Origin: Lobosporangium transversale
Lineage: Eukaryota > Mortierellomycota > Mortierellomycetes > Mortierellales > Mortierellaceae
Direction: 5' to 3'
Assembly (NCBI RefSeq): GCF_002105155.1
Contig: NW_019028983.1
Coordinates: 708,001 to 772,000 of the forward strand
DNA: 64,000 nucleotides
The notes beneath the pieces are model-generated. The model was given only the letters and a program-made list of their open reading frames with translations. It was not told the origin of the DNA and did no database searches. Both the position numbers and the translations under genes were made by a program. Below are positions 4,363 to 51,332 of the stretch, in pieces (positions within the stretch are counted from its first letter, which is position 1; every line of letters begins with the position of its first letter).

Positions 4363-7300
4363 TTACATGCCAACGCCAACACCCCCTTGATCATTCATAA
4401 TACTTCCATTTTGACTTAGCGTCGATACAGGCTGGTACCAACCAGTGATGCCATTGCTCAAGCCAAGTTTGATCCTTTTATCGCGTTCAAACTCGCACCA
4501 TTTCTTCATCACGATCTGACTCGAATCAAACTCGCCTTCTTTGGAGCCATGTGAATCCGCTTTGCCATCACCTTCGCCTTGCACCTTACGCGTTTGGCCC
4601 CACGTAAAGTCATCGAAGTGCCAGAATGCATAGGTTGGCAGTACGAAGTTCCAGATTGGAAGCGAAAGTAAGTACATGCCCATCCAACCAACGTACACAA
4701 TCTTGCGTGTCGTCATCAGAATCAAGATGGCTGGAAGGCCTAAAATAGCTGCCAATAACATGAGTGGAATGATCGGGACCGGCGTGATAATGAAAGAGAT
4801 GATAATTAAATACATTGTGAACGAGATGGCAGCAGGTAGGACCACAGTTCCCACCAGCTCCATGAAGATCACAAACTGCATCGAGAAACAGAACGTTCCA
4901 CAAAGATCTCGGATCAGAACCAGCTCCATCAGATTGTGGATTGTCGAGTTGATCCACCGACGGCGCTGAGACAACAAAACTGCGAAAGAGATAGGAACCT
5001 GGGTTTTGCAAACCGCCTGAGGAACAAACATCATCTTGCGCTTTGGGAATGTTCGAAGCATGAGCGTGGTCAAGTAACGATCCTCTCCCAAAAGCAGCAA
5101 GTTCTTCTTGTGAAGCGTATCAACAACGTTCTCGGAATAGTGCTCAACAATATCAGGATTGGCGAGAACAGGGACCCAATATCGATTAGGGCCCTTGGGA
5201 GCCTTGATGCGGTACATGCAAAAACAACCAGGAAGACAAGTCACGCCTCCAAAGATGGACTCAAATGCTTTTGATAGATGATGTGAAATGTAATACTCAA
5301 AAACTGACAAGAAAGCAATCATTATGATGGTTAGTCTTTCTGGCAGGTAAGATTTATAGCAAAGTTTGAAGAAAAACCAATTACTTTTTTTTTGTCCTAC
5401 CTTGGATCATGGAAACCCAAGATTCCTTCTTATTGGCGATCTTGGTCTCGCCACAAAGACCCATTACGGTTGGATCTTGAGCCATGCAGGCAACCATTCT
5501 GGTTAAAGAATCAGGATAGACCTTAGTGTCCGCATCAACCATGAGCACAAGCTCATAAAAGTCTGGTGTCACCTTGGTTACATTCCAAAACGCGTTGAAG
5601 AATTCATATTCCAACGGCGTCATGCGCTCATCAAACATCACTTTTTGCAGGAATGACATCAAAATAATCTGTGAATCCCTCTTGCCACGGTTTCCAGGTT
5701 TCTTGTCGCTTGATTCTGCAGGGGTTCCACATTTGACAATCACAATCATGGGGACTCTTTGGCGTTCTTCCATCGGAATTTCACAATCATCTGCATATTT
5801 ATAATATCCGGCGTAGATCTTGGCCATGTTGTGGCGCTTGGATCCGTCAGCAATAGCAATGTATGACTGGGGCTCGACTTCTTCGCGAGGGACCACAAAG
5901 TCAGTCATCATATCCAAGCAAATATCAGGTGTTGTTCTATCCTCATTTTCGCCACGAATAATGCCATCCGCAATGATCAAAAGTAGCTTATGGGTCGAAG
6001 GGTAGCTCGTGTTCGCAAGCGAGTCGCAAGTAGCTCGAAGGCCATCCATGCCTTCAGAATAGCATGTCACTAACATTAGCGTATGTAACAATGGACATTG
6101 CCGAGCCTCACCCTTGAGTTTGGATAGAGAGGCATTGAGACCTGCACGACTTAAACGTGACCCGCTTGTAAAGCTCGATGGCTTCAAGGAATCGGAACGC
6201 ATTTGACCGGGCCGCGGCATAGAACGTCCTTTCAAAGATGAACTAGACCGTGACATTTCAGTGTTTGAAGGTAAACTATTCCAGCGATTAGGTGGAGGAG
6301 GGAGACCGAGCGGAAACGGGAACTCTGTAGTAGCAGATATATGTGACCCATTGGGCGTGGTGGTGCCCGAGACGTCAACAGAGTATCGGGATCCTGAAGG
6401 TATGACATTGGCGCGAATACGCTCGGCACGGCTTGAATAATAAAAGACGACGAAGGTGCATAGAGATCTGTCACGTTAAAATTCCTCTAATTCTTGACTA
6501 AGCAGAATTAACTCAAAAAAATAAAATAAAATAAAACTTTACCGATTTGTCTCAGAATTTGGGCTCTCAACGTATGGCGAAGTGTTGTCGTCGACCCAGG
6601 CTTCAATGATCTCCTGGCGTCGAAGCTTTTCAGCAAAGGTCTTTTCGTCAAATGACCCTAATCTCCAGCTGAGGACCCATCCAAAGATGACAGCCAAAAA
6701 GAACCTGAGTAAGACAACGCCCAGGATGACGATCAGTGAGACATAGAGTACAATATCCGCGATCACGCATCCTAATGACATTTGATCAATGACCCCAACT
6801 TTGACAATCTCGACAAGGCACTTGCTGATATTGATGCGCTCCTTGGAATAGGACATGCTCAAACTGATATCTTTGCCTGCAAAGCTTCCATTCATGAAGG
6901 GAGCAAACGAAGGAGGGACGATAATATTGTCCTCCAACCAAGATAGTCGGTTAAGGTCCAGTACATTTCCATTATAGACCACATAGTTAGTCCCACTCTC
7001 TCTGAGATCCTCCCAGCTGAAGTAAACCTCACCCATAAATCGGAGATGCTTGATGTACTCACGTGCATTCATCGACCGTGGTCCTATATGGCAGCCTTGG
7101 GTCCCTAATCCACCAAGAGGCTTGGTGCCTGAGCCAGCACTTGTGACAACGCAAGGGAAATAGTTCCAGACATTCCCGAATTGGTCGTGCTGTTTAGCGC
7201 CTAAGACGCCTTTGCATGCATGATTGACTTTTTGAAACATAAATGTCATATCTCTCCCGCCAGCATCTGGGACTGGCTTGGCGAGTAAATTGCTTGTAAC

Positions 7301-8227
7301 GTTAGGGATTCCAGGTACAGGAGGATGGTTGAAGTCTTTGAGTAAGTAAGCGCGGCCCAAGAGAACCGCTGATTGATTATCAACGTGGCCATGCCGGATA
7401 CGGCTGGGTTCCTTGCCACAAAGAACAACATTGAAGCCAAAAGTGAGGAATCCGACTGAGAAGCATAGCATGAAAATGATGAATACCAGCGCGACCTTTT
7501 CGCGCCAGGCTTGTTGGATTTCTGAAGTATGCTTGCCTGTTATGCAGTAAGAGAAGAGAGTGAAAGAGTCAGGTAGAAGTATAATATGTCCGGGCTATAG
7601 AAGATTCCTTTTTTTTTTTTTTTTTTTTTTTTGACTTTCGAAAATAGATACATATCATTATGGGTCTTTACCAAGCAATACAAGAAGAGGAGGTGGAAAG
7701 CAACAAGTCACCATCCTAGAAAACGCCACCCAGACGGATGGACATCGACTGGGCTCTTCTCCTCCATCCCTGGAAGCCTTATTATGTTTCTTGCGCTTCT
7801 CCATCCTTTCAGCCTTCGCCTTGTCAAGATCATGCTGTTGCAATTGGTCCGGTCGGCGTTTCCGCACTGTGTGTTGATTATTAGTGTCATGACTATCATT
7901 AATCTTATTATCACGATCATCATGCACAAGTCCTGCTACCACGGAATCCCTGGGATATTTTTCAGATGATGGCTGTATGTTATCATGATTGTAACGACGA
8001 TGATGGTTATGATAACTTTGTTGCAGACTCTGTTCAATGGATCCATTTCGATTGGCATGACGATTAATGCCAGGTGGCTGAGTAACGATAGTCAGTCCTC
8101 CATTATTTCTATGGCCATGATGGTGGACTGGTTGTGGTTGCGGAAGTCGCACACCAAGTGTTTGTGAGAGCTCAGAATATAAGTCGTCGCTACTGCCATT
8201 CTCCAAGTCAAATTCCTTTTCTTTCAT
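4363..8227 (-). CDS. Chitin synthase, class IV type
   Basis: Four exons: 7672-8227, 6543-7536, 5401-6467 and 4363-5303, giving 1185 residues. It is a processive GT2 enzyme that makes chitin from UDP-GlcNAc at the plasma membrane. A polar 185-residue N-terminus, rich in His and Asn, is followed by a first hydrophobic segment (about 195-225). Next come a cytochrome-b5-like region ([11 protein letters not shown], about 340), a second hydrophobic block (about 435-470) and the catalytic domain. The catalytic signatures are intact: VDAD with D828 and D830, GEDR at 945-948, and QRRRW at 985-989. C-terminal membrane helices follow. There is no myosin motor, so it is class IV (Chs3-like) rather than class V or VII. 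Activators of the Chs4 type are expected but not seen here. Compare the fusion at 27274-32042. Confidence 0.95.
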
Positions 8228-12057: not shown

Positions 12058-13589
<1,532 letters not shown>

Positions 13590-22918: not shown

Positions 22919-25900
22919 TCAAAGTCTCAAAGGATCGTCCTCTTGAAGTTGCTGATGGGTTATTGTTATTCCAGACGTTGCTGCTGAAGATGCTGATACA
23001 TTTTGTTTGCTCACATTGCCTGCCAAGGGATCGATATTGATTCGATGGCTTGGTGTTGGTGATGGCGAGAACGTATCTGGTGTCGACCGCTGTACTCCTG
23101 AACTAGCACCAGATTTTGGTAGCGATGAAATTGAGGCAGATGGAGATGCAGTCTTGGTAATGTTGCTACTGCTGCTACTGCTGATGCTATTATCGTCATT
23201 TAACATCCAACTAAATTGAGAATTAACCAGAGAAGAGCGTGGCGATTTGACTTTATATCCCAAATTGGATGATCCTACTCCCTTTGTAGCCGATATGGAT
23301 GGTGATGATGAACGCACAGGTCCTGTAGTGGTGGTGTCATCAATTAAGTCGTCGAATGAGAATGGTTTAGGTGCAGATAAACTCGAAGGAGGTGAAGGAA
23401 CATATGATTTTGCAATTGGCGGCGTGACAGGAGGCGTGTTTTGATCATATTTATACCCTCGATCAGCGCTGAATTCAGTCCCAATCGCACTGCTATGACT
23501 TAAAGTCCGAGACAAGCTTCCTCTCTGACTATGAAGGTCGCTGCTTGACCTTCGAGGACTTTCTGCCCTAATAGGCGTCGGAGAGTTAATTCTGGTCGTC
23601 GCAGCTATCGCATTGATGGGTTTTCGTTGAACCTTAGTAGTTGTTCCTGATCGGGTATCTGTTTGAGTGGAGGCGTTTGGTGATGGCAGGGTAGGTTTTG
23701 TGGTAGAGTGAGCTACTTCATGAACACCACTCTCATCGTTTATATTGGTTGATGTCTCAAGCATCTTGGATTCAATAACAAGGAGATCCAGATCTTTAGA
23801 AGACCCTAATAGGAAATCGCGTACATGCTCAAGTCCAGACATTGCAGCTTGCGTAGCCTTGGATGGCATCATTAAGACAGAGTTGCTCTGATCAGGTGTT
23901 CTAAGTTCAGTTTCCAAAATAGCCATTGCTTTGGCGACTATTTGTCCCAATTGTAATTGAAGCTGTTTGTCAGTAAAACCGACGGTATTACTGCCATTAG
24001 CATCCTGATATTCCTGTTCCATTGGTGAATGATGTACAGGTTGTGTTGATGCCACTAGCCTGCTACTTGGGACATTCGCCTGATCGAATATTGGAGGAAA
24101 TGGAGACGGTGACGGAGATTGTACTGGAGAGTTGACTTTTCGAATATACGACTGGGTGTTTTTCTGTAGAGTGGGAAAAAAAAAAAAAAAAAAAAAAAAA
24201 AAAAGCATGATTAATCAGTTTCGTATCATATGATCATATGAAAGAGACATTAAGACTCGTTACCATACTAAATATGCATATCTTACTTTCATATCGCTGA
24301 GCGCTTTATTCAAAGCCGCACCGCCTTTGCTCTCCAAAACATTCTTGGTAACATGTACAAATCCTTCAGCCACGGGTTTGATAGCATCCAAAGCAGCTGG
24401 TGGCAAATGCTGACTGAAGACTCCGCTGCCTGAGAAGCTCGGATTTTGTCCCTTTGCATGGTCATAGGGGTACGATTGTTGTTGCTGATGGTCCTGTTTT
24501 TGGTGATGGTGGGACTGTTGTGTATATGTTGGAGACACCCCACTCCGTTGATGGCGCTGTTGCAGATGGTCATGCCCTGCATGCTCCGAGTCACTTTCAT
24601 AAGGTAATGGTGGCAGTGGTTTCCCTGTAAGAGCATTGTTCTGTCGAATAACCTCGAGTCCACCAATAGCATTCGGCTGTTTTTGAAGAGACAGTCCTTG
24701 GGAGATGAACAAATGGACATCTTTCACTGATGGGTACCTCATCAATTTATGAAGACATCCTGCGAAATCCTCTTGTAGCACTAACATTCAAAAGCCATAT
24801 ATTTTTAGTGACTAATTGTTCCTAGTTGATGAACTTTCCCATCCATTTTATACGGGATAAAAGCTATGATAAACACATACAATCATCTCGAATGCGTAAG
24901 AGCAGCGCTAGACCAATAAAAATGCATATTTCAAGATTTGGGTCCTGAGCAAAGATGCCATCCCAAATAGTTAAAACATCCTCCATAGGAAACTCCCGTC
25001 CAAAGAGCAAGCGAAACCAGCGACTATGAAAGTGACACAAAACCATGGTTAATAGGCACTGAAACTTCATATTCTTAAATCCTGATCACCTGCGTGTGTA
25101 CATGTTTAAACTTCGCATATAGTTGCTTACATGCCGAAGAGCTGAGGCTGGATATCAAGGTTTTTCAGGTGCAAGTACAGCTCGTTATCAATTTTTTCCA
25201 AGTAATAAAATATTTTCCTAGACCATTCAATCACTGGAGTTTGCTTTCCTGGTGTGGGCTGACATCCACAAAATGAAAGAACATAAATACCATGTGGAAA
25301 TAATACGTTGGTGAATAAAATATCCCCATACTTTTTCGCATATTTTTACCTCCGGACTTTCTGCTCTACCAAATAGCTGGGTATGGCTGTTTGCGTTAGG
25401 GATCTAATCTCAACATATACATATAAATATATAAACATGATTATTGGTGATCTCTATGATGGCTATTTTTCTCTTCTTTCTTTTTTTTGTCTTCTCTTAA
25501 ATTACCTGAAACGAACATTAACTAACCTTGGGTTTTCTACTGACCATGGTATCATCACTGAATTCATACCATGGCTTTGCACGACTCATTAGAGCCGAAA
25601 ATAAAGTGAACGAATCGTGCTCAATGGAATCTGCATCTAGTACATTCTTGATTATGTCTATAGTTGGATCGCTGAAAAAAAAAAAAAAAAAAAAAAAAAA
25701 GAAGGAAGATGGATTGAATTAGCCATGAGAATATGCGAGTAGGATGACCTATACGACCGCATATATATAAAATACTCACGAAGGGAAACTAGGTGTGGAA
25801 TGAGCATCCAAACTTTCAGACGAAACGACCCAGAGAATGTGCGCAACCAACTCATGCATTCCTTGGCGGTAAGACACATCGCTGTTGATTTTACAATATA

Positions 25901-26648
25901 TGAACAAGATATCATTCAATTGTTCCTGGACTTTCTCTGATCGAAAGAAATCATTATCGGGTAAACTAAAAAAAAAAAAAAAAAAAAAAAAAGTATCATG
26001 AACAAAACATTGATTTTAAAACTTTGGTTGCCTTCAGCCTCAGTAGCCACTTTGCACGACTATTCAACTCACGTTCGATCCACGTCCTGCTTAATAACCT
26101 TTCTTAATTCTGAATCAACAAAAAACTGTTGCCATGGACTATCCTTGGCTAAACTGAGGGGATTGTTGACTTCTAGATCTGGCTCTACCCCATCATCACT
26201 CCCAATTGACCGAATGTATTTCTTGCGCAGTTCCTTGTATTGCTCACGCTTTGTACTCATTGCATATGGCCATGATGAAGTATCTAATGAAGGCAGGCAC
26301 GATAGGTAGACCTGCAAAAAAGAAAAAGAAAAAAGGCCCATAGTGTTAATGATAAAGTAATGGATTGACTGCCTTGCATATACAGGGATACAATGACAAG
26401 TTAAGACTAAGTTTGGCTGGATAAAGTAGTAAATAACTTTTGTCTTCGGGCCATTTTTCTTGATATACCTTCCAACAGATAGAACGAATCCCATCAATGC
26501 CTAAATTGGCATGTTGCGAAACAGCTCGTGCTCTGAGCGATTCCTGAGTAAGACTAGGGTCTTCAAAAACCTCAGCCCATTTCAGTCTATGGTGAATAGA
26601 ATGTATTAAAAGATGAATGAACCGCGTGAATTTATGTGGTGTGACCAT
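22919..26648 (-). CDS. TBC-domain Rab GTPase-activating protein, TBC1D5-like
   Basis: Exons: 26469-26648, 26073-26311, 25780-25965, 25527-25671, 25350-25376 (27 bases), 25131-25258, 24881-25023, 24287-24780 and 22919-24163, giving about 928 residues. The TBC domain keeps the order of human TBC1D5: IRSICWK, NNPLS, QDVDRT, YRQGMHEL, RWFRLLFGREFP and IWDGIF. The arginine finger is in the IRSICWK block and the glutamine finger is in YRQGMHE. TBC1D5 is a Rab7 GAP that works with retromer at late endosomes. The C-terminal half is Ser/Pro/Gln-rich and probably disordered. The N-terminus is uncertain. The ATG at 26648 gives an uninterrupted first exon, but an acceptor at 26587 could join an exon further upstream that I could not identify. 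Confidence 0.85.
24176..24204. repeat. A29 homopolymer in TBC1D5-like intron
   Basis: Twenty-nine A, which are T on the coding strand, lie 10-40 bases upstream of the acceptor of the last intron (24164-24286). Confidence 0.85.
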
Positions 26649-27273
26649 GTAGTTAGTCCGAATGAAATAGAGATCCGGTAAAATCACATACCGGACACCT
26701 TTGATGGTATTCATGAGGTGACAGTAGAAGAGAATAAAGAGAATAACAGAGGTAGTCCTAAAAAGTGCTTTCAAAAGAAATATCAAGGTCATAAAAAAGG
26801 CACACACTAAGATTTGCTCCTGAGTTTGAAAGAACGTCACGCCCAACTATGGACGCGTGAAATTATTATGAATTAAGTATTATAGAGAACTATTAAGGTA
26901 AAGTCAAGGGTGTATGTGGGAGAGGTAATATGTACAAAGTATCTACAGGTATTAAGCCAAGCGCCCCCAGACTGGGCACCAGTTCATGCCATCACACGCG
27001 TGTGCTCAATCTTAAGCTCTCTCTTGTTCATGTTGTCCATGCTGCCTATTGTAACTGGCTCAGCAACACTCAGTGGCCTTATAGCTTTCCATTCCACCCA
27101 GTATCGCAGCTTTCGGCCATTCGCAGGGCTGGTTATGACTGCCTTTAGTGAGCTATCCACAGGGAAAAACGGAGGGGAACCTTCCATGTAGGTGACCTCG
27201 TGAGGTAAAGAGGACCCATGATCTACTTTAATTTTTTTTAGGGTAAATTACGCAGGTAAGTCCCATTTTTCAT
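26649..27273. other. Spacer with overlapping ORFs of unknown meaning
   Basis: This holds the 5' region of the TBC1D5-like gene and the 3' end of the ankyrin/chitin-synthase fusion. Within it, 26910-27191 is open on both strands. The minus frame (67 codons, starting at 27187) has balanced composition, unlike the A+T-rich DNA around it. I recognise no family. It could be an unplaced 5' exon or a relic of a mobile or transferred segment. The phase 1 and phase 0 donors near its end do not match the phase needed at 26587. Confidence 0.35.
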
Positions 27274-30200
27274 TTACACGAATATCCACCCTCCTTTCGC
27301 CTTAATTCCATTTTCAGGGGTCAAACCATTACCATTGAGACGCCAATGTGCGCAAATCGGTATAATCAAATATTTAAGAGGCATGCACAGCAAAAACAAA
27401 CAAAGGTCAATCAAATCGGCAAGGAGTGTATGTCGTCGGCTCAACAAGATGCTGAGTATTGGCTGAAGTATTGTTGAGCATAGCATGATCGCCAATGTCA
27501 ATACTACTGGCAAAGAATACAGAGAGCTCATGTTCATCGTAGTTCCAACAATCACAAGTGTCATCAAAGTCCATGACAGCATGACAGCGATAGGCAAAAG
27601 AACCAAGTTGAACCATTCCAAGAGAGCCAAGCAGTTGACGGAAAAGCAAAAGATACCGCGAAGCCTTGAGGACCACATCATTGTCCATAGGTTATGGAAT
27701 GAAGTAATCAGGAGTAGACATTGCTCCTGAAAGTACTCTCGAAAGCTCACACTCGCGAAAGATTGATAAGTAGCATCTGGCAGATAGATAATACGGTGTT
27801 TGGGTAGTGACCGATGAAGTAATCCTGTCAGATAACGGCTGTCCCCACCTCGCAAAAGCCTACTGCGTTGGTGTAGAGCTCTCGGCTTGTGACTAACAAA
27901 GGCGGATACCACATCGGGATGAACCAAAATCGGTAGGAAGTATTGCATATCCTCTATGTCTTCTTTCCGATTGTAATCTTGACCTTCCTTCGTGCGCCTG
28001 TTTTCGTCAATGCTCTGCTGCTTGTCTTCTCCAAGCTCTAGATCTATACCTTCACTTCCATTTGCATTAGTTGCGCCATTTGCCTCGCCAGCCCAAGGTA
28101 TAGCTGATACTTCACCAGGGTATAAACGTTGGTTGGAAACACTATTATGCGAAAACTGACGATGCTGGTTACGGCACTTGATCTTGATCCTAACGATTGA
28201 TAATTGACTTGGAAGGCATTGAATAGCACCTAGAGTCGACTCGAATGCGCTTGAAAAGTGCTGCGCTAGATGGTTTTCGAAATTCTGAATCCTCGTCAGC
28301 CAACTCTCTGTATGATTCGCAATTAGTCTATGGGCAGCGACTCCAATAGTTCGCTCATCGTCTTGAAGTGTTTGGATCATACTCCTCACGCTTTGTCGAG
28401 CACATACGCTCCCAATCTCTGTCATGAGAAGCGAGTCAAAAGCTTCTGGCCCAACATGGTTCAACGCTCGTATTTTCTCGCAAAGATTGAATTCGTTAGC
28501 CGACATTGGCTCGTTAAAGCAGATGCGATATAGCCAACGGATGACCATTTTCTTCTTCTGCCAGTCTCCATAGTAGGATAGTGAGAGGTTATTTGGGCGA
28601 GATAAGCAGGCGATGACTACATAAGGGACTCGTCTCGTCTCCACCACATAGTGACCAGAATACACTCTTGTTGTAGATCCATCATCATCAGAAGCGATAC
28701 AGACTGGTTCGACGCTGCTAATCGCCAAAGGGCCAATGTCCTGATCCGGCGCTAAACCAACATTTGCTGTCTTTTCGAAGTCAGACGTGTTTACATGTGA
28801 TGTCACCATCTGTCTCAGACAAGACAATAACGCCCCGCTGGGGTTCCCTTCTTGATCTGTTGCAACATCTACAACAACCATCAAGACCTTTCGGTCATCT
28901 TCATGATCAGTTAATGCCAATGAATCGAGTGTTGCCTTGATTCGAGTCTCGGGCTCGTCCGCGTTGCAAGCGATAAACATCAAGATGTGGTTCTCAGTTT
29001 TGACTCTGGAACCAGGTTCCGGTACAGAGGTGCTCTTCCCTGACTCATATGTTGGCCGCTGATTAAATATCACACGGTAAACAAGTGCAGTAACTAGGCG
29101 TAAAATCGTGATCAATAAGACAATCGCCAGCGCTGCTGTATTGAGCACTAATGAAGCTAAGCATCCATTAGTCTGTCCAGAGATCTCACCGACTCTGAAA
29201 AATTCATTAAAGCAAACTGAGATCTCCTTATGGTCGGATTGTCGCTGAACCAGCAGCGTGGCGTCCTTGCCAACAAGGGTACGAACCCAGTCCATCCGTT
29301 TATTTTCTTCGGGAGTGATAGAAGGCTCCATTGTCTGATTCAAGTAATCAGTTGCATCAAAAACTGATCCATCATAGACAAACAAGCTGCGACCCTGCTC
29401 ATTCATTTTCTTAATATCCATCCAAGAGTAGGTGATTCGAATATCGTTTCGAGCGATACTTCTCAATGATCCTTGAATTAACTGGCTCTGGTGACAGTGG
29501 TTGACGCTTTTATTGCGGGCACTTGTGCACATCCCGAAACCGTTGGCGGCGCCAAAAAGCTGACAGGTGCCCGTATGACTTGATGGGAAGAGGAAACTGA
29601 TATCGGATCCAGAGCGCATTGTCAAGAATGAGTCGAGCTGTCCTTGGTCCGAGGTTGGAGGATGGTAACCGGCTTTAAAGAAAGAGCCAACGTCATACAC
29701 ACCGCCCCGAATCACCATTAGACCATTCGTCCCTGGTCCTAGTAATTGACTTGGATTTCTGTAACGGGCACTGAATTCGAGAAGAGACAAGGCTTGGACT
29801 GAGCGGGGCCTGCATGTCAGCAGCGGGAGGCCAATGGCTATGAACCCGATAGTGAATGAGAACCCTATCAACAAAACGCCAAGAAGAAATTTTTCACGCC
29901 AGTCTTGACACATATCCTTACTCCACGCTCTGGGGAAAAAACGTGCTGGGCAACAAAAGGCTGCTAGCTGCGACAACCCCACCCAAAGTTTATTCCTAGG
30001 CCTTTTTATTGATTGTTGATAATGCTTTATGACTCTTTGGTTTAATTCATTTTCTGCATCCTTCTCCTTGGCATGCGCCGCAGAACTGTTGCCGGGACGA
30101 CCCTTGAGCTTAATCAAGCGTGGAGCAGAGACACTGTCGTCATCACGATGGTTGCAAGCACTGAAATGAAGATCTCTGGAACCATACTTTGGTTTAATAT

Positions 30201-32042
30201 TGTGACGATATATACTGTAAATTTGCAGCGGAGATGGTTTTAAGGCTGTTAACTTCCTCTGCTTGCTATTGGCGTCATCGGCACTCCCGCTACTCTCGCT
30301 TGTGTGATTATTGTTTTCAACAGCCTCATGAGCAGGGGAGATGACTGTTGAGTTTTGTTCCTGCGCAGAGGGTACTGATGCAGATACGGATGCAAAAGAT
30401 CCTGCGTCCGAGCTCTGTTCTGCAGGTGATACATCAATCGGAGGATCGAAAATGGTTACAAGGCGGCTTGCAGGCAGAGCTGTGGGTATTGGAGACACTG
30501 GCTCCTCCTCACCTGCTCTAGGCGAGACAGCTGATATAAAGATCGGGTGTGGGCGACGAGAATGTCGACGAGATAACGCAGACTGTCGAGTAACAGTACT
30601 GTTTTGACCAGAAAATGAACGTTGAGTCGCATAATGACTGCCATCTAAGCCTTCTTCTGGAACTGAGGGTAGGGAGGGTGCAGGTGAATGTGTTCTTCTA
30701 GACGATGACCTTGGTGCAGAGGGTAGCGTCTGTTGAACCAAAGTTCGAGAGCTCATACTTGAGCTTGGTCCTGAAGAAGACGACGAGGTGTTGTTGCCTC
30801 TAGCAAGAAACTTCGATATGTACACGGCGATTGACTTGTGGCCTGCATCCCAGGCTAAACTACGGGCAGTTTTACCATTAGCGGTTCTGATATGTGGATC
30901 AGCTCCGTGCGCAAGTAATAATTTGCAAGCATCTAATTTGCCTGCATAGGCGGCAAGCATAAGCGAGGACCATCCGTACTGGTCAAGTGTGTTTAGTGAT
31001 GCACCATGTTCTAGTAGCTCAGCCATAACATCTACATGGCCTGCATACGAGGCAAGTAAGAGTGCGGATTTTTGTGTGTTATCTTGCTGGTTCACATTTG
31101 CATGGCCGGTGGTGAGGAGAAGGCGACAAATCGACACAAACCCATTGTACGAGGCGATAATCAATGGTGTGATAGACTCCTGTGATACAGTAATCGTTTA
31201 GTAACCATTTGGTTTGGTTGGTTGGTTGTACATGTACGTCCACACAGAAGAAGCGATTTAGGTGGTGCACAATAATAATAAAAAATAAACGAGAGAAAAT
31301 AACAGCAAACAAGACAAATATAAGTTGAACGATCGTCAAACCGAAAGGAAGCATAGTAACATGATTGACCTGGAATACAAGGGGGAGAAGGACTATTGAG
31401 AGAAAGAATAGCAGCGTGTGGGGCGTATTGTCCTGATTTCCCGTGGATCTTACCTCGTTTCCTTGACTTGCTGATGCACCAGCCAGCAGCAGCAACCGAA
31501 CACATTCGGTCGATCCAGCTGCGGCAGCTTGATAAAGCGCTGTCTCGCCTTCCGCGTCTGTGAAAACGTGAGAAGAAGAAAAAAAGAAAAAAAAAAGGAG
31601 GCATATTGTGTGATCCAAAGAAAGTAGCAATGAGGTTGAAGAAAAGTAATGGATTAGGCAAAATGGGAAGGTATTTAGATAACCATGCTCCTTACACTTA
31701 ATAATAAAAGTCACCTTGTAAATCCACAATGATGGAAGGGAGGGTCAAAAGATATCGCAAAACGTGGTGCTTGTTCTCTGTGGCTGCAACCATGAGCATG
31801 GTCTTGCCTTCTCGGTCCCTGACATTATTGGGGTCTAGAGAGAGGCTTGTCAAGACATGATCCAGATGTTCTGTATCCTGGACGAGGACAGCATGAAATA
31901 TAGAGCGAATCACGCCTGCCACTGAGTATCGGCGCGTCCCTGTGGCTGTGGTAGTTGTGGAGCTGGAAGTTTCCTGGATAGATGAGTCGTCTGGATCGGG
32001 TCCATCTCCGAGGCTCTGTCCACGGAACCCACCAGACTCCAT
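27274..32042 (-). CDS. Ankyrin-repeat/chitin-synthase-like fusion, predicted inactive
   Basis: Three exons: 31715-32042, 31454-31557 and 27274-31179, giving 1445 residues. The first ~270 residues hold about five ankyrin repeats (for example EGETALYQAAAAGS, WSSLMLAAYAGK). A Ser/Pro-rich linker (about 270-500) and a region organised like a class IV chitin synthase follow: hydrophobic segment, cytochrome-b5-like block with LFVYDGSVFDATDYL, second hydrophobic block, GT2-like core and C-terminal helices. Shared landmarks with the enzyme at 4363-8227 include ESW..RIQ.FE, SSAFES.LG...CLPS, RYLT and RGIFCFS. The catalytic signatures are gone: VDAD is TEIG (1064-1067), GEDR is GDSR (1256-1259), and QRRRW aligns with EQCLL (1296-1300). 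The 3.9 kb exon is open throughout, so a maintained pseudoenzyme is likelier than a dead gene. The ATG at 32042 is the first in frame. Confidence 0.88.
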
Positions 32043-36760: not shown

Positions 36761-36986
36761 GGTTTCATTTATTGGGTGATGAAGTAAAAAAAGATTAATT
36801 TTTATTTGATTGTATTTTATCGATTTGGTGGCGTTGAGTATGAAAAAAAATCGAGTCAAATCATTGCTTAAAATGTCTTTGTGTGTACTACACTAGGTCC
36901 ACTTTCATTATAGTCAACCTTATTAATGTAGTTACGGGGATCCGGGAATATTAACTGTTAAAACGAAACGAAGACAATGTGGAGGG

Positions 36987-38203
36987 TTAGCTATATGCTT
37001 TCAATGAAGCCTTCTTTCCATCTTTAATAGCACTTTTGCTGAACATTACCTTGGCGACAATTTCCGATCCAAGAAATCCAGCATGAACAATAGAGTCTTT
37101 GAGGGCAGGAAAGTAGTCTGGGATCTTCAGGAATTTGATCTCTCGAACTTGATATTCGCCAAAATTCTCGGATATAGACAGTGATTCTTCAATCTCACTC
37201 TGAATTCGAGATTGTAAGCCTAGAACGCAAATTTTACCAAGATTAGCAGTAGGCAACTTTTTATATCGACTTTATAAAAATAATAAAAATAAAAGTTACC
37301 TTTAACCTGACATGAACCACCTGTCACGATGATTGCCTCCCATAATGACTGGCGTTTCTCAGCTTTGCATGCAAATTGCGCAGCATGGATTGCCTCGATA
37401 ATGTTCAACACTCGTTTTCCCACTAAATCAGGATTAAACAAGGGATCATAAGCATGAAAACGTGCAGATCCTACAGTAAACTAGGAAAATATACCAACAG
37501 TGGCTTATCAGAATAACAATCGCGTTAAGTTACGTTATCAATGTTTCAGTTCCAAGATGTCATACCTGTCTACCCTTATATTCCGCTTGTGCTCTAGTCT
37601 TGCTTTCTTTCTCATCTTTGCCTAGAACTCGACAAATATCTGATTCTTTTAAATGCCGAGCAAACTCGATATCCAAAGGTTCTCCATACTCGCGTACCAA
37701 CTGTGTATCAGCCTTCAAAAGTTCTAGGAAGTATGTGTCAAAATCTGATCCAGCTAACGGAATCGTCTGTATTGCACTGCGTTGGATCAAGGTGTCGAGA
37801 ATTGGAGTAATTTCTAAAATAGGACAGTAACATCGACTTCAAATTAGTCACTTGATGGCATATCCTGTTGTATATCACTGACTACCGAATCAATCATCAC
37901 CTGTGCTGTTATGGCCAATGTCAATGACAAGGCCTGTGACGGCAGCACAGCCATAAAGGATCATTAATGGTTCCTCTGCAAGGTAAAGACCTGGCACATT
38001 GAAATTCTCAAAAAAGATTTGAGTAATACGCTCATGCTCTTCCTTGGTCCAATCTGTCGGAACAACCATAAGCACAGGAGAGGCGTTTCTAGAGCGCTTG
38101 ATTCCAAGCTCTCGGAATAACACATGGCGCCTATATCCGGACCAAAACACCGTGATTAATTATGTTTTTTTTTGTGCTTTCATGCTCAAGAATGAACATC
38201 ACC

Positions 38204-38238
<35 letters not shown>

Positions 38239-38782
38239 ACCAGAGTGCTTCCATAGCGCCCCAGTCCTTAATAATACCACCCTGAATGGGTGTTGAGACG
38301 ACCAGATCAGCTTTAGAATACTGTTGCTCTGCCTCAGCCAAGGCGCTTCCACAGTAATATATTGTTTGCGTTTTGGGGCTCTCACGTGCTTTTGTATTTT
38401 CCTGAGCTTCTAGATCATTTCCTTGAGCTGACTTTTCGGCTTTTATCTCTGCATCAGCATTGATGTTCTCGGATGGAGTCGCTTCCTCTGCCTTCTTAGT
38501 GTCAGCGTCAGCTGTCACTAGCTCAGAGGTCTCCGCTGCGATAGTCCTTGCTCCAACAAGTGAATGAATCGTCTATCAATTCGAAATTGCGGGTAGGGGC
38601 AACATATTGGGCCCTAGTTAACATCAATTTTTGTGTCTTATAATTTTAAAACGCGTACATCTGGTGATTAGCTAACTCCTTACAACGATTGGCGGCTTGT
38701 TTGTGTCAACAACATTGATGCCCGCTTTGGTGTTCCATGATCCAGAGTGTAAGACGACAAAGTTCTCTTCCCTGAGCGCCAT
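36987..38782 (-). CDS. Actin-related protein, Arp7/Arp9-like
   Basis: Six exons: 38684-38782, 38241-38572, 37901-38130, 37566-37813, 37300-37480 and 36987-37219, giving 440 residues. An actin-fold ATPase domain is visible: N-terminal VVLHSGSWNTKAGI, the middle block NVPGLYLAEEPLMILYG followed by GLVIDIGHNSTEITPI, and the nucleotide-site-like IIVTGGSCQVKG. The spacing resembles the Arp7/Arp9 group, which forms a dimer on the HSA helix of SWI/SNF and RSC remodelers in the nucleus. A charged, Ala/Glu/Lys-rich insert at about residues 48-102 is not part of the actin fold. The typical actin DNase loop is not recognisable. The stop lies 226 bases upstream of the MCMBP start, on the same strand. Assignment to Arp7 or Arp9 individually is not possible by eye. 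Confidence 0.78.
38205..38235. repeat. A31 homopolymer in Arp-like intron
   Basis: Thirty-one A directly precede the reverse-strand donor of intron 2 (38131-38240) of the actin-related gene, so the coding strand has T31 just after the donor. Confidence 0.85.
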
Positions 38783-42134: not shown

Positions 42135-45100
42135 ATGACCAGCACAAAAGATATCAACGACCCTTTACAGTGTGGCCAAGACGAGGGTACTATGTTATAC
42201 ATGATGCTGGCGTCTGTGGCTATTCTTTTTTCCTTTTACTCATTTCTTGATTTTAAGCTCACATTTGTCTTTTCTCTCGGTTTTCGGTTAAACTTGTTTT
42301 TTAATAGTCAGTAGTAATGATACACAGATCGTTGCCTACAATAGCCCCAGCCACGATCTTGAGCATTCACCCAAGACAGGTCGCAAATCCTATCAATTTC
42401 GAGCTCTGGTATGAATGTGGTCTTGTTGAGCTTGCTCCATCGTATTGTCCATTATATTTATTATACACTTCAATCTTTCACGAGCTGATCATTCCTTTAA
42501 ATCTATATGATTTTCAATAGGGAAGAAAAACTCTCTCTTTTCAACGTCGTCAAGTATTTGTTAATGTCTGCTGCATTGGTTTGTGTCCGATCTTAATGGT
42601 CATAATCGCTGGAGCCATGGGCATTGGAATCACAGCCCTGATCAATAATCTAGGCAATCCATCAGGTAATATGGCGATGGTGTGGATGTAAAATGAATGA
42701 ATAGCATTTCTTAGATTTCATTGAAAAGCCTATATGCATCTCAATTGTGGGTGACGTCTACTCAACTTATTTGGTTGCTTTCATGGTTTAGATTATCTGC
42801 TGTGCTCTGATGTAGATGCCATGACCCCACGTGGTTTTCCACTGGTACCATCCTTTTCAAAAGAGATTGTCGATTTCCCTTCGTCACTAGGATCATCTAT
42901 ACCCAATGCTCCTGCAGATAAAACCATTAAACACGTCAATTGGTACATTGTCCCCGGTCGTCTTGGCTTTGGAAGCTCGCCCACCATCTCCGCCGATAGT
43001 TGTGTGTGGTGGTTCGAGAAAGATTACCCCTATTCTAGTCCCTATGCCAAGGACCCCAATATCACCTCTCCTGGTGCCAATCTGGACAGTACCTATAAGG
43101 CACAGCCTAAGGGCGGATGGTTGGGCTCCGCGCAGCTGATTGCACCTATCGAGTTGACGGCACAGCAAACATATCCTTGGCTTCTGACAGCTGATGAAAC
43201 TGGAGGGCTTGCAGGAACGCGACCTAAACAACCTCAGGTGGATGCAAAGTCAGGAAATCTAACGGGTCAGCCTTTCGGTACAGGCCTCTTGGGAGGCATG
43301 GAAACGCGCTACTATACTAATATCACTGTGGATCCTAGTGTTGGATTTCCGGCTCTTACAGGATTCCAAGCAGTACCATACTACCAAAAAGCCTCCCAAT
43401 CGGAAGATGCTAAAGATGTTGATGAAGCGCTAACCAATCAGATTAGGAATTTGATTGAAGGTTTGGCGCGCGTAGACAAGTCTGCCATCCGCGCCAAGGA
43501 CCCCACACCAGAGCAACGCATCAAATACTATTCAGATATTGGCACATTAGTGCAAGGAATGCCCATTGGAGCAGTTGTATTTAATACTATTGATACTACA
43601 GCTAGAAAGTTCGGTTATACCCTTCAAATTGGCAAGGATATTCGTCTTTCACAAGCGGCAAACTATCCTGATCGGGGCTTCCGTCTGATGCAGCAGCACA
43701 CCTCACTTACTGCCGCCATCTGTAAGTTTTTTATTTATTTATTTATTAAAATGAGGGACTCTTCAATTGGAAGCTAATAAGGGTTGATTCGTGGAAATAT
43801 ACTACAGTGAAATCATCACCCACTGCCAATGCAACCAAGATCACTCATGGCTTCCGTGGGATGCCCCAATTGTTCACAACAAAGGCGGAGATCCCAATCG
43901 CCTCCTTGGTTGGAAGGATCTTGTATCCATTTGGAGTATCGTTTTTGTTGCCCATTTTTGTCATTACTCTAGTCAAGGAAAAAGAAGATCGTATTCTCGT
44001 GATGATGAAAATGGTATGTAGTCATCTAAATTTAGGCGCAGATAGATGCTTACTTCATATAATTGATCTGCATACTTATCTATGGTAATCTTTCATCTAT
44101 ATTGGCGTGTAGAGTGGACTCAAGTCAATCACATACTACGTCGCCCACTATATCCATTTCTATATCTTGCACATCCTTTCTTCGTTAATGTTCATCATCG
44201 CAGGTATAGCGTTCCGCATGCCTTTCTTTACTAAGGTCGACCCTGGTGTTTTTATCCTTCTTTTCTTTTTTTGGGGTCATGTCCAAATCGCACTCGCTTT
44301 TTTCCTCTCATGCTTCTTCAGCAAATCTCGAACTGCTCTTGTGATTGTCTTCCTGCTCGTACTCTGTGGCGTTATCGTATCGCTTGCAACTGAAAACATC
44401 TTTCAAAATGACCCTGCACCCATCGGATACTTTGTGTGGCCAGCTTTTGCATTCTATAGAGCATTGTCTGTCATTAATCGATCCAGCTATGACAGCGCAT
44501 ATCAGCCATACAAAATGTCGGATCTCAAGGGGTCGGATGAAGTTTTTCAGGTCATAATTGCAATGATCATTGAAACATTTGTGTTTTTAGCCTTGGCATT
44601 CTATTTGACCGAGGTCTTTCCTACAGAATTTGGTGTCCGTCAGCCATGGCATTTTATCATATCAAAGCCTTTTAAACGACTTTTCAAGAAAAAGAGGGAG
44701 CAGAATGATGTGGAGGGGCAAGTTCGACAGGATAATATAGGATCGATGCGTGAAAGGGTGCAAGGCGAGATCCCTTTGGATCCTGAGGAAGTCAAATACG
44801 AAGATGATGATGTGAAGAAGGAACGGACGCGCGTCTTGCACGACGAATATTCGCCTGATTGTCCATTGGTGATGAAAAATATGCGCAAGATCTATCCATC
44901 GAACAAGAAGCTGGCAGTTAAGAATGTTACCTTTGCCGTTGATAAAAATACCATATTCGGCTTGCTTGGACCTAATGGTGCAGGAAAGACGTCGTTAATC
45001 CATATCTTGACGGGTCTTTATGAACCTACACAAGGATGGGCACGTTTGGCAGGTTATGAATTAGATACAGAAATCAAAGATGTTTACCGCAACATTGGGA

Positions 45101-45922
45101 TTTGCCCTCAGCATGATATTTTGTGGGATGACCTGGTAAGCAACGCTTTTTGGATTGAATCTTGTATTAGAATCAAGATCTGCTGTTCAATCAGGGGAGG
45201 ATGTGCTAAAAGGGTCTTTTCTTGTTTGTATTATGCTATATTAGACTGTTGGGGAACACCTTTACTTTTATGCACGTCTAAAGGGCGTGGCTGCTGTAGA
45301 TGAGCGTGCTGCCGTTCTATCATCGCTGAATGCAGTTTCGCTTGTTCCGTTCGAGGATCGTTTAACTAAAGGACTAAGTGGGGGAGAAAAACGTCGTCTG
45401 TCGATTGCCATTGCGCTGGTTGGTAATCCAGGCATTGTGTTCTTGGACGAACCTACGACGGGTCTTGACATTTCTGTCCGGCGCCTCATCTGGGATATCG
45501 TCTTCAACGCAAAGCAAGGGCGGACGATTATATTGACAACACACTCCATGGAGGAAGCTGAAGTGCTCTGCTCCAGAATTGGCATTATGGCTAAGGGAAC
45601 ACTACGCTGCATTGGAAATCAGATTCGACTCAAGGATCTATATGGGCGTGGATTCAAAATCACATTCGCTAGCAAACCCGAAAATACAGAACGGGCATCG
45701 CATTACATATCATCCTTGCTTCCTCCAAATTCTAAGAGGCTTGACTCGTTTGTGACCTCTGAGTCATGGGAGTTCGACAATTCGCCTGGATTAATTCAAC
45801 GTCTGTTTGAGGAGATTGAAGCCCATAAACATGAGCATGGTATCGATGACTGGGGCCTGAGTCAGACAACTCTGGAGGAAGTCTTCTTGAGAATCATCCA
45901 AGAGGAGGATGCTGACGCATAA
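42135..45922 (+). CDS. ABCA-type half ABC transporter
   Basis: Seven exons: 42135-42186, 42308-42408, 42521-42665, 42792-43721, 43808-44013, 44113-45135 and 45245-45922, giving 1044 residues. The order is a first helix (about residues 70-95), a large extracytoplasmic loop (about 100-440), a block of about five or six helices (about 445-660), then one nucleotide-binding domain. Walker A is GPNGAGKT (764-771), the Q-loop block is ICPQHDILWDDL, the signature is LSGGEK (863-868) and Walker B is FLDEPTTGLD (D887, E888). Later comes TTHSMEEAEVLCSRIGIMAKG, typical of subfamily A. ABCA proteins move lipids across membranes. Animal members are full-length with two halves, while half-size ABCA proteins occur in Dictyostelium and plants. 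Most Dikarya lack this subfamily. Substrate and dimer partner cannot be read. Confidence 0.9.
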
Positions 45923-49083: not shown

Positions 49084-51332
49084 TTAAAAGACAGGAACAC
49101 CTCCAACTACATCTGAAGGTTTCCTGGCCTCACCAGTTAAAGCCTCAGCCAAGAAGGCATACTCTTCGGCCAAATGGACCTTCTTGTTACCGGTGGCGAC
49201 AGAAGCAGAAGGCTCACGACCAGCATAACGAACTTCTTTGTTGGCATGGTTAGTAGTCTCACGAAGCGAGGTACGGATGCGTGGAGCAACATGGGCCCAA
49301 GCGCCCATGTTCAGAGGCTCCTCTTGACACCAAACAATCTCCGCGTTGGGATACTTGTCAGCGTACTCCTTGACTCTGTCATAGGGGAAGGGGTTCAACT
49401 GCTCAACGCGAGAAATAACTACATCATCAATCTTGTTCTGCTCACGAGCCTTGACCAAGGCGTAGTAGACTTGACCAGAGCAGAAAATGTGCTTCTTGAT
49501 CTTATCGGAGCTAACAAGGTTTTTATCATCAACCTCAGGGATAAAGCGTCGGAACTGAGTATCGCCAGTCATCTCCTCCAAAGAAGAGCGAGCCATAGGG
49601 TGACGCAACAACAACTTGGAGTTGAAGACGATCAAAGGTTTGCGGTAGTCCCGGTGAATCTGGCGACGGAGGACATGGAAGTAGTTGGCAGGAGTGGAGC
49701 AGTAGACCACTTGCATGTTGCAGTCCTGGTGTTGTCGCGAGAGCTTCTCTTCCGACGGGAACTGGTTGGGATTGTCATCACACATTTGGAGGTAACGCTC
49801 GATACGGGCACTAGAGTGCTCAGGACCCTGTCCATCATAACCATGGGGCAATAGCATGGTCAATCCTGTACGTTGGAGCCACTTCTTCTCTCCAGAGGCA
49901 ATAAACTGGTCGATGATACATTGAGCATTATTGGCAAAGTCTCCGAATTGAGCTTCCCAGAGAATAAGCGAGTTAGGGTTGACAAGTGAATATCCAAGCT
50001 CAAAGCCAAGGGCACCAAATTCGGAAAGTGACGAGTTGCTGACTGAGAAAGCAGCTTGACCGTGACCAAGATTCTTGAGAGGGACATGGAGCTTGTCAGT
50101 CTCCTGGTCGTGAAGGACAGCATGACGGTGCGAGAAAGTTCCACGTTCAACATCTTGACCAGCCAAACGGATGTGTTTGCCCTCTGAGAGCAAAGTGCCG
50201 AAAGCCAAGCCCTCGGCAGTGGCCCAATCAATGTTGGAGCCAGTCTCAATGGTCTTGGCACGAGCCTTCATGATGCGGGCCAAATTGGAGTGAATCTTGA
50301 AGCCAGGAGGATACGAGCTAATGGTATTTCCAACATGCTTCAGGGTCTCCATAGCAGCACCAGTGGGGAACGTGGGAAGAATTTCTGTAGCCAGCTCAGC
50401 AGGAGATTTGAATCCATGCCATGAGCTGGTCATCCATTCCTTAGGTTGGGCTTTGTAGTCCTTGCTCTTAGAATAGTTTTCCTCAAGAATGTCCCAGATG
50501 CGCTTCTTCATTTCGTTGATCTGCTCCTCCTTGAAAGAGCCTTCCTTGATGAGCTTATCAATGTAGTTATTTAAGGCGGGAGTCTGATGCTCAATAGCTT
50601 TGTACATGATGGGCTGAGTGAAGCTGGGTTGATCAGTCTCATTGTGTCCATGACGTCTGTAACAGACAAGATCAATAACAACATCGGTGTGGAATTCCTT
50701 GCGCCAGTCAGCAGCCAACTGATGAACAAAGTTGACAGCCTCGACATCATCAGCATTGACATGGAAGATAGGAGCGTTGATCGATTTTGCAATGTCGGTA
50801 CAGTAAGCAGTCGAACGAGCGAAGCGGGGGTCAGTGGTGAAGCCAATCTGGTTGTTGACAACAATGTGAATGGTACCTCCAGTCGAGTAAGCAGGCAAAT
50901 CCATGAATCCGAGGGTTTCATAGACGACGCCCTGTCCTGCAAAGGCAGCATCACCATGCAAAAGAACAGCGAGTGAGCGAGTTCTTTCTTTATCATCCAT
51001 GTAATGTTGAATGGCATGAGTCTTCCCGAGGACGACGCCATCTGCAGCTTCTAAATGCGAAGGGTTTGCGACCAAAGACAATTGAACGGGCTTGCCCGAG
51101 GGAGTAGGACGCTCATAATTCATCCCCAAGTGGTACTTGACATCTCCAGAGAATCCGTCCTGAGCAGAATTACCACTAAATTCTGAGAAGATGGACTCGT
51201 GGGGTTTGCGTACAACATTGGACAAAACGTTGAGACGACCACGATGAGGCATTCCCATGACAATAGACTCGACACCATGCTCGACAGATCGATCAATCTA
51301 TGCAGATCCAAAGAATAATTGGTTGATTAAAT

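Follow-up and report, generated by a model that had tools for sequence, protein, structure and literature searches.

In the window (64,000 nucleotides of the Lobosporangium transversale genome, analysed as one stretch), the four-exon gene at 32042..26984 on the minus strand probably encodes a conserved pseudoenzyme, a membrane-anchored ankyrin (Ank) adaptor derived from a chitin synthase, and belongs, as the representative from Lobosporangium, to a clade of such proteins in the Mortierellaceae; we assign this reading a probability of roughly 0.6. The data suggest that a wall-building enzyme of Mortierella-family soil fungi was converted to a role in binding or regulation.

Splicing of 32042-31715, 31557-31454 and 31179-27274 on the minus strand yields a translation of exactly 1445 residues in which TEIG is found at 1064, GDSR at 1256 and EQCLL at 1296, as checked on the DNA, reproducing the frame length and the motif replacements reported in the first-pass annotation. 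The 3' end of that frame reads into the last intron; after correction, exon 3 stops at 27333, exon 4 occupies 27225-26984 and the product has 1506 aa. The corrected 3' end matches that of P0002, the L. transversale protein at NCBI. Six Ank repeats, starting at residues 76, 110, 143, 177, 210 and 243, were counted in addition to an N-terminal cap, instead of the "about five" given before. The features of the gene are listed in Table 1.

Table 1. Features of the Ank-fused pseudo-synthase gene and the adjacent gene (positions within the window).
Feature	Position	Strand	Basis
Exon 1: N-terminus, Ank cap, first repeat (residues 1-109, part of 110)	31715..32042	-	alignment with orthologue P0003 from residue 1
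Exon 2: second Ank repeat (up to residue 144)	31454..31557	-	spliced translation
Exon 3: remaining Ank domain, linker, TM/CHS4 segment, pseudo-GT core, C-terminal TM segments	27333..31179	-	
Exon 4: C-terminal tail, absent from the first-pass frame	26984..27225	-	agrees with NCBI protein P0002
Ank domain, residues 41-275	30787..31922 (introns 1 and 2 within span)	-	Pfam; 85% mean identity to covering members
Conserved linker motif, residues 302-320, last letters SRRTHSPAPSLPSVPEE	30652..30708	-	35/38 dead-clade, 0/11 intact proteins; position checked on the DNA
Predicted TM segment, residues 575-593	29833..29889	-	hydropathy
CHS4 / Cyt-b5-like domain, residues 726-808	29188..29436	-	Pfam
Predicted TM segment, residues 826-844	29080..29136	-	hydropathy
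Pseudo-GT core, residues 861-1310	27682..29031	-	Chitin_synth_2 match; motif table
TEIG replacing VDAD, residues 1064-1067	28411..28422	-	
GDSR replacing GEDR, residues 1256-1259	27835..27846	-	
EQCLL replacing QRRRW, residues 1296-1300	27712..27726	-	
C-terminal TM region, residues 1311-1425	27337..27681	-	four hydropathy peaks
Adjacent TBC1D5-like gene, downstream, same strand	22922..26588	-	tblastn with TBC parts of P0004 and P0051

Pfam detected Ank repeats, CHS4 (726-808), Cyt-b5 (729-810) and two Chitin_synth_2 stretches in the protein; Chitin_synth_2 scored 202 bits, the cut-off being 27. The protein has the Chitin_synth_2 domain and the Cyt-b5/CHS4 segment expected of an active class IV enzyme, and lacks the expected VDAD, GEDR and QRRRW (TEIG, GDSR and EQCLL are found instead). 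The chitin synthase motifs considered here include those of donor binding and metal binding; EDRXL and QRRRW are named as chitin synthase motifs in PMC4734345.

The first-pass annotation had proposed a proteome search for Ank plus Chitin_synth_2 proteins. Protein searches, each scoring about 8000 candidates, the scope within which all clade and lineage counts given here stand, found 37 relatives that were assigned with the window protein to a "dead" clade (n = 38), those named being Mortierellaceae, as well as 11 Ank-chitin synthases with intact motifs from Glomeromycotina, Calcarisporiella, Endogone, Coemansia and one metagenome. Mortierella alpina, Linnemannia zychae and Podila clonocystis contribute more than one row each. 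In a motif table of 38 dead, 11 intact Ank-fused and 7 Ank-less proteins, the second D of VDAD is missing in 38/38 dead-clade members and the W of QRRRW in all 33 alignable rows of this clade. As far as the aligned sequences tell, the sampled dead clade lacks the donor- and metal-binding motifs as well as QRRRW throughout, and the pattern is that of a pseudoenzyme, with catalytic residues lost clade-wide and the fold family retained. The pseudo-GT region gave zero matches at E <= 0.01 against PDB sequences; the canonical enzyme P0026 matched solved chitin synthases in the PDB sequence search. Towards the C-terminus, a WxEW pattern was seen in 10/38 dead-clade members, the pattern as written being too strict.

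The two groups differ in where conservation lies. At matched TM/CHS4 divergence, mean identity is 84% in the Ank domain and 48% in the GT core for the dead proteins, while the intact proteins show 48% and 77%, respectively. At matched TM/CHS4 identity, Ank identity exceeded GT identity in 362/362 dead pairs versus 0/30 intact pairs, the pairs not being independent of one another. Between the window protein and the clade members, identity is 85% in the Ank domain and 41% in the GT core, the Ank figures excluding P0021, P0025 and P0043, which have no Ank region, and covering only the last part in P0023 (these models start late). Contact-type Ank positions, which we take to be the usual positions 2, 3, 5, 13 and 14 of each repeat, reach 96% conservation among dead-clade proteins (0.957 vs 0.628). 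Judging from these values, constraint has shifted away from the GT core and onto the Ank domain, including the face by which such domains usually bind. The earlier suggestion that the repeats form an interaction surface gains from this, since they are the most conserved part and the usual binding face is nearly frozen.

The fast evolution of the GT core would also fit a loosely constrained anchor, and it could be argued that only the Ank domain and the linker matter, the chitin synthase part being a decaying anchor with no needed surface. The 85% versus 41% identity favours such a view, as does the Gryganskiella protein P0051, which keeps the Ank domain and the linker motif without the chitin synthase part, its gene model joining Ank and linker to a TBC protein; however, the missing part may be either a gene-model artefact or a true loss. 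Moreover, neutral simulation down to 41% identity produced a mean of 42 stops and a minimum of 35 (20 runs), whereas the real GT frames are open, many GT-part residues are near-invariant, and the predicted TM layout (hydropathy peaks) is retained. We therefore consider a merely decaying anchor rather unlikely. The open frames and the conservation give the protein the appearance of a selected pseudoenzyme, in line with the initial proposal that selection keeps it for a non-catalytic job.

The dead clade is monophyletic and nested in a clade of Ank-fused proteins, with IQ-TREE support of 100 and 100 in a set for which 25/38 dead-clade proteins were given and 22 kept (P0039, P0040 and P0041 fell to a crude cut). 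The same nesting was obtained by FastTree (1.0 for the dead clade, 0.998 for the Ank-fused clade), in a set that includes these three proteins and from which P0037 was dropped for gaps. P0089, a gene model without a GT core that does not belong to the 11 intact proteins, was removed because its inclusion left the dead clade non-monophyletic and its GT core is missing. The profiles of dead and intact Ank-fused proteins are collinear, with 29% over 737 columns in the chitin synthase part and 45% over 225 columns in the Ank part. Compared with the window Ank domain, 9 of the 11 intact members scored 186-236 bits and one more 122 bits, while the Coemansia Ank reached only 97 bits, the best generic protein among those fetched scoring 108. 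With a homologous N-terminal Ank domain (225 columns, 45%) and a chitin synthase part that falls in one clade with theirs (100; 0.998), the gene groups, on sequence evidence, with other Ank-fused proteins in one branch of the class IV-type chitin synthases, in which members from other lineages keep the catalytic motifs.

The first-pass annotation had also proposed that the protein serves as a regulatory subunit, trafficking partner or modulator of the enzyme at 4363-8227, a class IV protein that does carry VDAD, GEDR and QRRRW. Two class IV-type proteins lie about 19 kb apart in the window, and chitin synthases dimerise in solved structures, both of which would suit such a pairing. However, several genes intervene, further class IV-type copies are present in the L. 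transversale genome, and the enzyme at 4363-8227 sits elsewhere in both trees, together with two further copies from this genome that also have no Ank domain, so that a nearest-relative status is ruled out by the IQ-TREE and FastTree placements. The special link between the two genes was thus not borne out, and a dedicated pairing is very unlikely.

Motif loss in the clade is not uniform. The D of EDR is present in 32/36 dead-clade members aligning there, and the D of VIADG in 32/38, so some ligand binding or unusual activity is possible, and an altered enzyme using another donor or a metal-independent route, with the acidic residue of EDR retained, could be imagined. On the other hand, the W of DDFSWG is lost, as is Dx (followed by 14 protein letters that are not shown), the alignment shows no new conserved acidic pair at the VDAD site, and L. 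transversale itself has GDSR instead of GEDR; an altered enzyme is highly improbable. Since most members keep the D of EDR, the GDSR of L. transversale, out of the ordinary even inside the dead clade, is a local change. The claim that each catalytic signature is lost consequently applies to the L. transversale copy and not to the clade, in which this residue is mostly retained. Orthologues with intact motifs, named in advance as a sign of lineage-specific loss or assembly errors, do occur in the 11 proteins of other lineages, but not inside the clade of 38. The loss common to all 38 members is an old lineage-wide event, and a local assembly error or recent decay in L. transversale, for which the unusual GDSR might speak, is hardly credible and was rejected given the loss shared with 37 relatives, the open frames and the highly conserved Ank domain.

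In the preferred reading of a membrane-anchored Ank adaptor, the protein would be unable to make chitin and would reside in membranes used by chitin synthases, with a conserved partner held by the Ank face. The pseudo-synthase body would act as an anchor and perhaps also offer a surface on which active chitin synthases could pair with it. As an adaptor or regulator, the protein would then influence how these enzymes are delivered, where they are placed or how active they are. Tentatively, and at somewhat less than even odds, one could hypothesise that an Ank-bearing chitin synthase became non-catalytic no later than the ancestor of the sampled Mortierellaceae, after which the Ank face was frozen, and that the resulting membrane scaffold ties active chitin synthases or their vesicles to a fixed partner. 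The logic of this proposed scaffold role resembles that of the inactive relatives of rhomboid proteases.

Among known systems, the class IV chitin synthases of division 2 (Chs3-like) are similar in the Cyt-b5/CHS4 segment, Chitin_synth_2 and TM layout, but the window protein has lost the catalytic motifs and gained an N-terminal Ank domain. The Ank-fused synthases of Glomeromycotina, Endogone and Calcarisporiella (P0044-P0050, P0086, P0087) share the domain order, a homologous Ank domain and the clade, but have intact motifs and the reverse constraint pattern. No description of the intact Ank-fused enzymes was found in the literature searched; several come from arbuscular mycorrhizal fungi, and they constitute a second group. 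Class V/VII chitin synthases likewise have an N-terminal trafficking or interaction module, although it is a myosin motor domain instead of Ank and the enzyme is intact (PMC5122149). In that large survey (Goncalves et al. 2016), chitin synthase-like proteins without QXXRW, formerly class VIII and similar in this respect to the proteins described here, were set aside as dubious, so pseudo-synthases would have been missed there by design. An Aspergillus fumigatus homologue of a trehalose-regulatory subunit modulates chitin synthase activity, according to the title of PMC5405227, and is likewise a regulatory subunit that is not itself a chitin synthase, although of an unrelated family. A clade of 38 proteins with a shared loss, together with intact relatives and a reversed constraint pattern, opens the question of whether chitin synthases have non-catalytic partners to direct testing.

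The chitin synthase-like window protein, which carries an ankyrin domain (Ank), is encoded by a four-exon gene of 1506 residues. The residue numbers and the motifs given for it in the first-pass annotation (TEIG, GDSR and EQCLL for VDAD, GEDR and QRRRW) were exact, while the end of the frame had to be moved from 27274, since the stop there falls inside intron 3. The NCBI protein P0002 (Lobosporangium transversale) matches the window protein at 100% and starts at residue 196 of the four-exon model, and an orthologue, P0003, is alignable from residue 1.

A protein search with the chitin synthase part yielded 28 proteins, and one that used nine aligned family members as query yielded 77 proteins at E <= 1e-25, the lower-ranked part of which consists of generic ankyrin proteins. 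Pooling the relatives from both searches assigned 37 proteins beside the window protein to a group lacking catalytic motifs, hereafter the dead clade. Its named genera (Gamsiella, Entomortierella, Modicella, Mortierella, Linnemannia, Haplosporangium, Dissophora, Podila and Lunasporangiospora) are all Mortierellaceae. Eleven Ank-fused chitin synthases with intact motifs (P0044-P0050, P0052 and P0086-P0088) come from Glomeromycotina, Endogone, Calcarisporiella, Coemansia and one metagenome. A third search, with intact members as queries, gave 662 matches; new among the 120 listed were Endogone, two Entrophospora records and one metagenome record, and most others of these 120 are ankyrin proteins of a generic kind. 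About 8000 candidates were scored per search, and the distribution described here is that within these; among them, Actinomortierella, also of Mortierellaceae, is represented only by an Ank-less intact enzyme, P0026.

Merging 38 dead-clade proteins with 11 intact Ank-fused and 7 Ank-less ones in a single alignment showed VDADT, GEDR, QRRRW and NRGKRDSQ in every protein of the latter two groups (11/11 and 7/7). The dead clade has lost both the second D of VDAD (0/38) and, with one exception, the first (1/38), as well as the Q of NRGKRDSQ (0/38), the Y of VTCYSEG (0/38), the W of QRRRW (0/33) and the W of DDFSWG (0/32). The claim that every catalytic signature is lost holds for the window protein but not for the clade; the D of EDR, retained in 32/36 proteins, and that of VIADG, retained in 32/38, count against reading the pattern as total loss. 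Read against known GT2 enzymes, the dead clade has lost donor binding, metal binding and the motif of the product channel, and retains part of the acceptor side. EDRXL and QRRRW are treated in PMC4734345.

Common descent of the Ank-fused proteins was recovered in two trees. The IQ-TREE tree (494 columns; 22 dead, 11 intact and 15 Ank-less proteins, 48 rows) gave a support of 100 both for the split between Ank-fused and Ank-less proteins and for the dead clade, and the corresponding FastTree values (37 dead, 11 intact and 15 Ank-less proteins, 63 rows) were 0.998 and 1.0. In both trees, the dead clade is nested within the Ank-fused clade. P0089, a model without the GT core, was excluded from the trees; when it is present, the dead clade is not monophyletic. 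Because the dead-clade stem is long (1.27 and 1.03 substitutions per site in the two trees), the exact sister is uncertain; Coemansia adjoins the dead clade in the FastTree tree, but not in the IQ-TREE tree. A partly independent line of evidence for common descent is the similarity of the Ank domains: compared with that of the window protein, those of nine of the 11 intact proteins reach 186-236 bits and one more 122, against 108 for the best generic ankyrin protein among those fetched. The Coemansia domain scores 97 bits and thus may have a different origin. In both trees, the intact class IV gene at 4363-8227, earlier proposed as a partner, groups with two other Ank-less copies of the same genome.

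Searching the window's own assembly gave 27 exon-level matches to PF03142. For the Ank domain, the next match after the gene's own exons has 33% identity and lies on a different contig. With the intact Calcarisporiella enzyme as query, no Ank match lay close to a match of an intact chitin synthase, so no intact Ank-fused copy was seen in the assembly. Class IV-type chitin synthase copies that closely resemble each other occur in two pairs, C73:883842-885528 with C78:103692-105365 and C36:109679-111172 with C36:355611-357101 (contigs of the assembly G000); these are either recent duplicates or unmerged haplotypes.

The gene order around the locus is summarised in the table. In seven gene models (P0004, P0018, P0023, P0030, P0033, P0035 and P0043) the family protein is joined to a TBC domain, making eight in other species with P0051, where only the Ank part is joined; the pattern points to a neighbour that is conserved and to models fused by automatic annotation. 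P0051 (Gryganskiella) has the family Ank domain and linker motif without the chitin synthase part, which was either truly lost or is missing through a gene-model artefact. In Podila P0024 an actin-related part is joined to the family protein; its match here lies upstream rather than downstream, so gene order is not fully kept. Both arrangements are taken as gene order, not function.

Features of the window around the probable Ank-fused pseudo-synthase gene
Feature	Coordinates	Strand	Remarks
Ank-pseudo chitin synthase gene, exon 1	32042-31715	-	spliced model
Ank-pseudo chitin synthase gene, exon 2	31557-31454	-	spliced model
Ank-pseudo chitin synthase gene, exon 3	31179-27333	-	spliced model
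Ank-pseudo chitin synthase gene, exon 4	27225-26984	-	spliced model
TBC1D5-like gene	22922-26588	-	adjoins the pseudo-synthase gene downstream, same strand; search matches 26588 to 22922
Actin-related gene	36871-38782	-	match to actin-related part of Podila P0024, upstream of the gene
Polyubiquitin-like open frame	12672-13589	+	four ubiquitin units
2-oxoglutarate dehydrogenase E1-like gene	49084-51258	-
ABC transporter fragment	44167-45303	+	ABC2_membrane_3 and ABC_tran matches

At the sequence level, constraint is reversed between the two groups. Within the dead clade, identity averages 0.857 for Ank, 0.509 for TM/CHS4 (the segment between the Ank linker and the GT core) and 0.501 for the GT core, versus 0.512, 0.501 and 0.756 in the intact group. 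TM/CHS4, being about equally diverged in both, was used as a yardstick. Among pairs matched at a TM/CHS4 identity of 0.4-0.6, which through their common ancestry are not independent of one another, Ank identity exceeds GT identity in 362/362 dead pairs versus 0/30 intact pairs (means for Ank and GT of 0.845 and 0.475 versus 0.481 and 0.773). Positions 2, 3, 5, 13 and 14 of ankyrin repeats often contact ligands; their conservation is 0.957 in the dead clade, where framework positions reach 0.961 and outer ones 0.766, versus 0.628, 0.803 and 0.480 in the intact group. Cutting the dead clade to 11 representatives, the size of the intact group, gave 0.952, 0.962 and 0.802. In the linker, a motif around SRRTHSPAPSLPSVPEE occurs in 35/38 dead-clade versus 0/11 intact proteins, the three misses including the late-starting models P0021 and P0025. 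A simulation in which the coding sequence drifts neutrally to 41% identity, the mean for the GT core (identities over the whole length are higher), produced a mean of 42 stops and a minimum of 35 in 20 runs.

Besides motif loss, common descent and reversed constraint, the sequences show that the predicted TM layout is kept. We favour a membrane-anchored adaptor, in which the Ank face would hold a fixed partner and the pseudo-synthase body would keep the adaptor in the chitin synthase pathway, perhaps pairing with active chitin synthases. The main rival explanation holds that nothing but the Ank part is important. Neither the dead clade nor the group of intact Ank-fused enzymes was found described in the literature covered, outside which most subscription papers lie, and the word ankyrin is absent from the main text of PMC5122149, PMC4734345 and PMC5353729. 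A supplementary table of PMC5353729 lists 14 rarely found further domains, among which ankyrin may figure.
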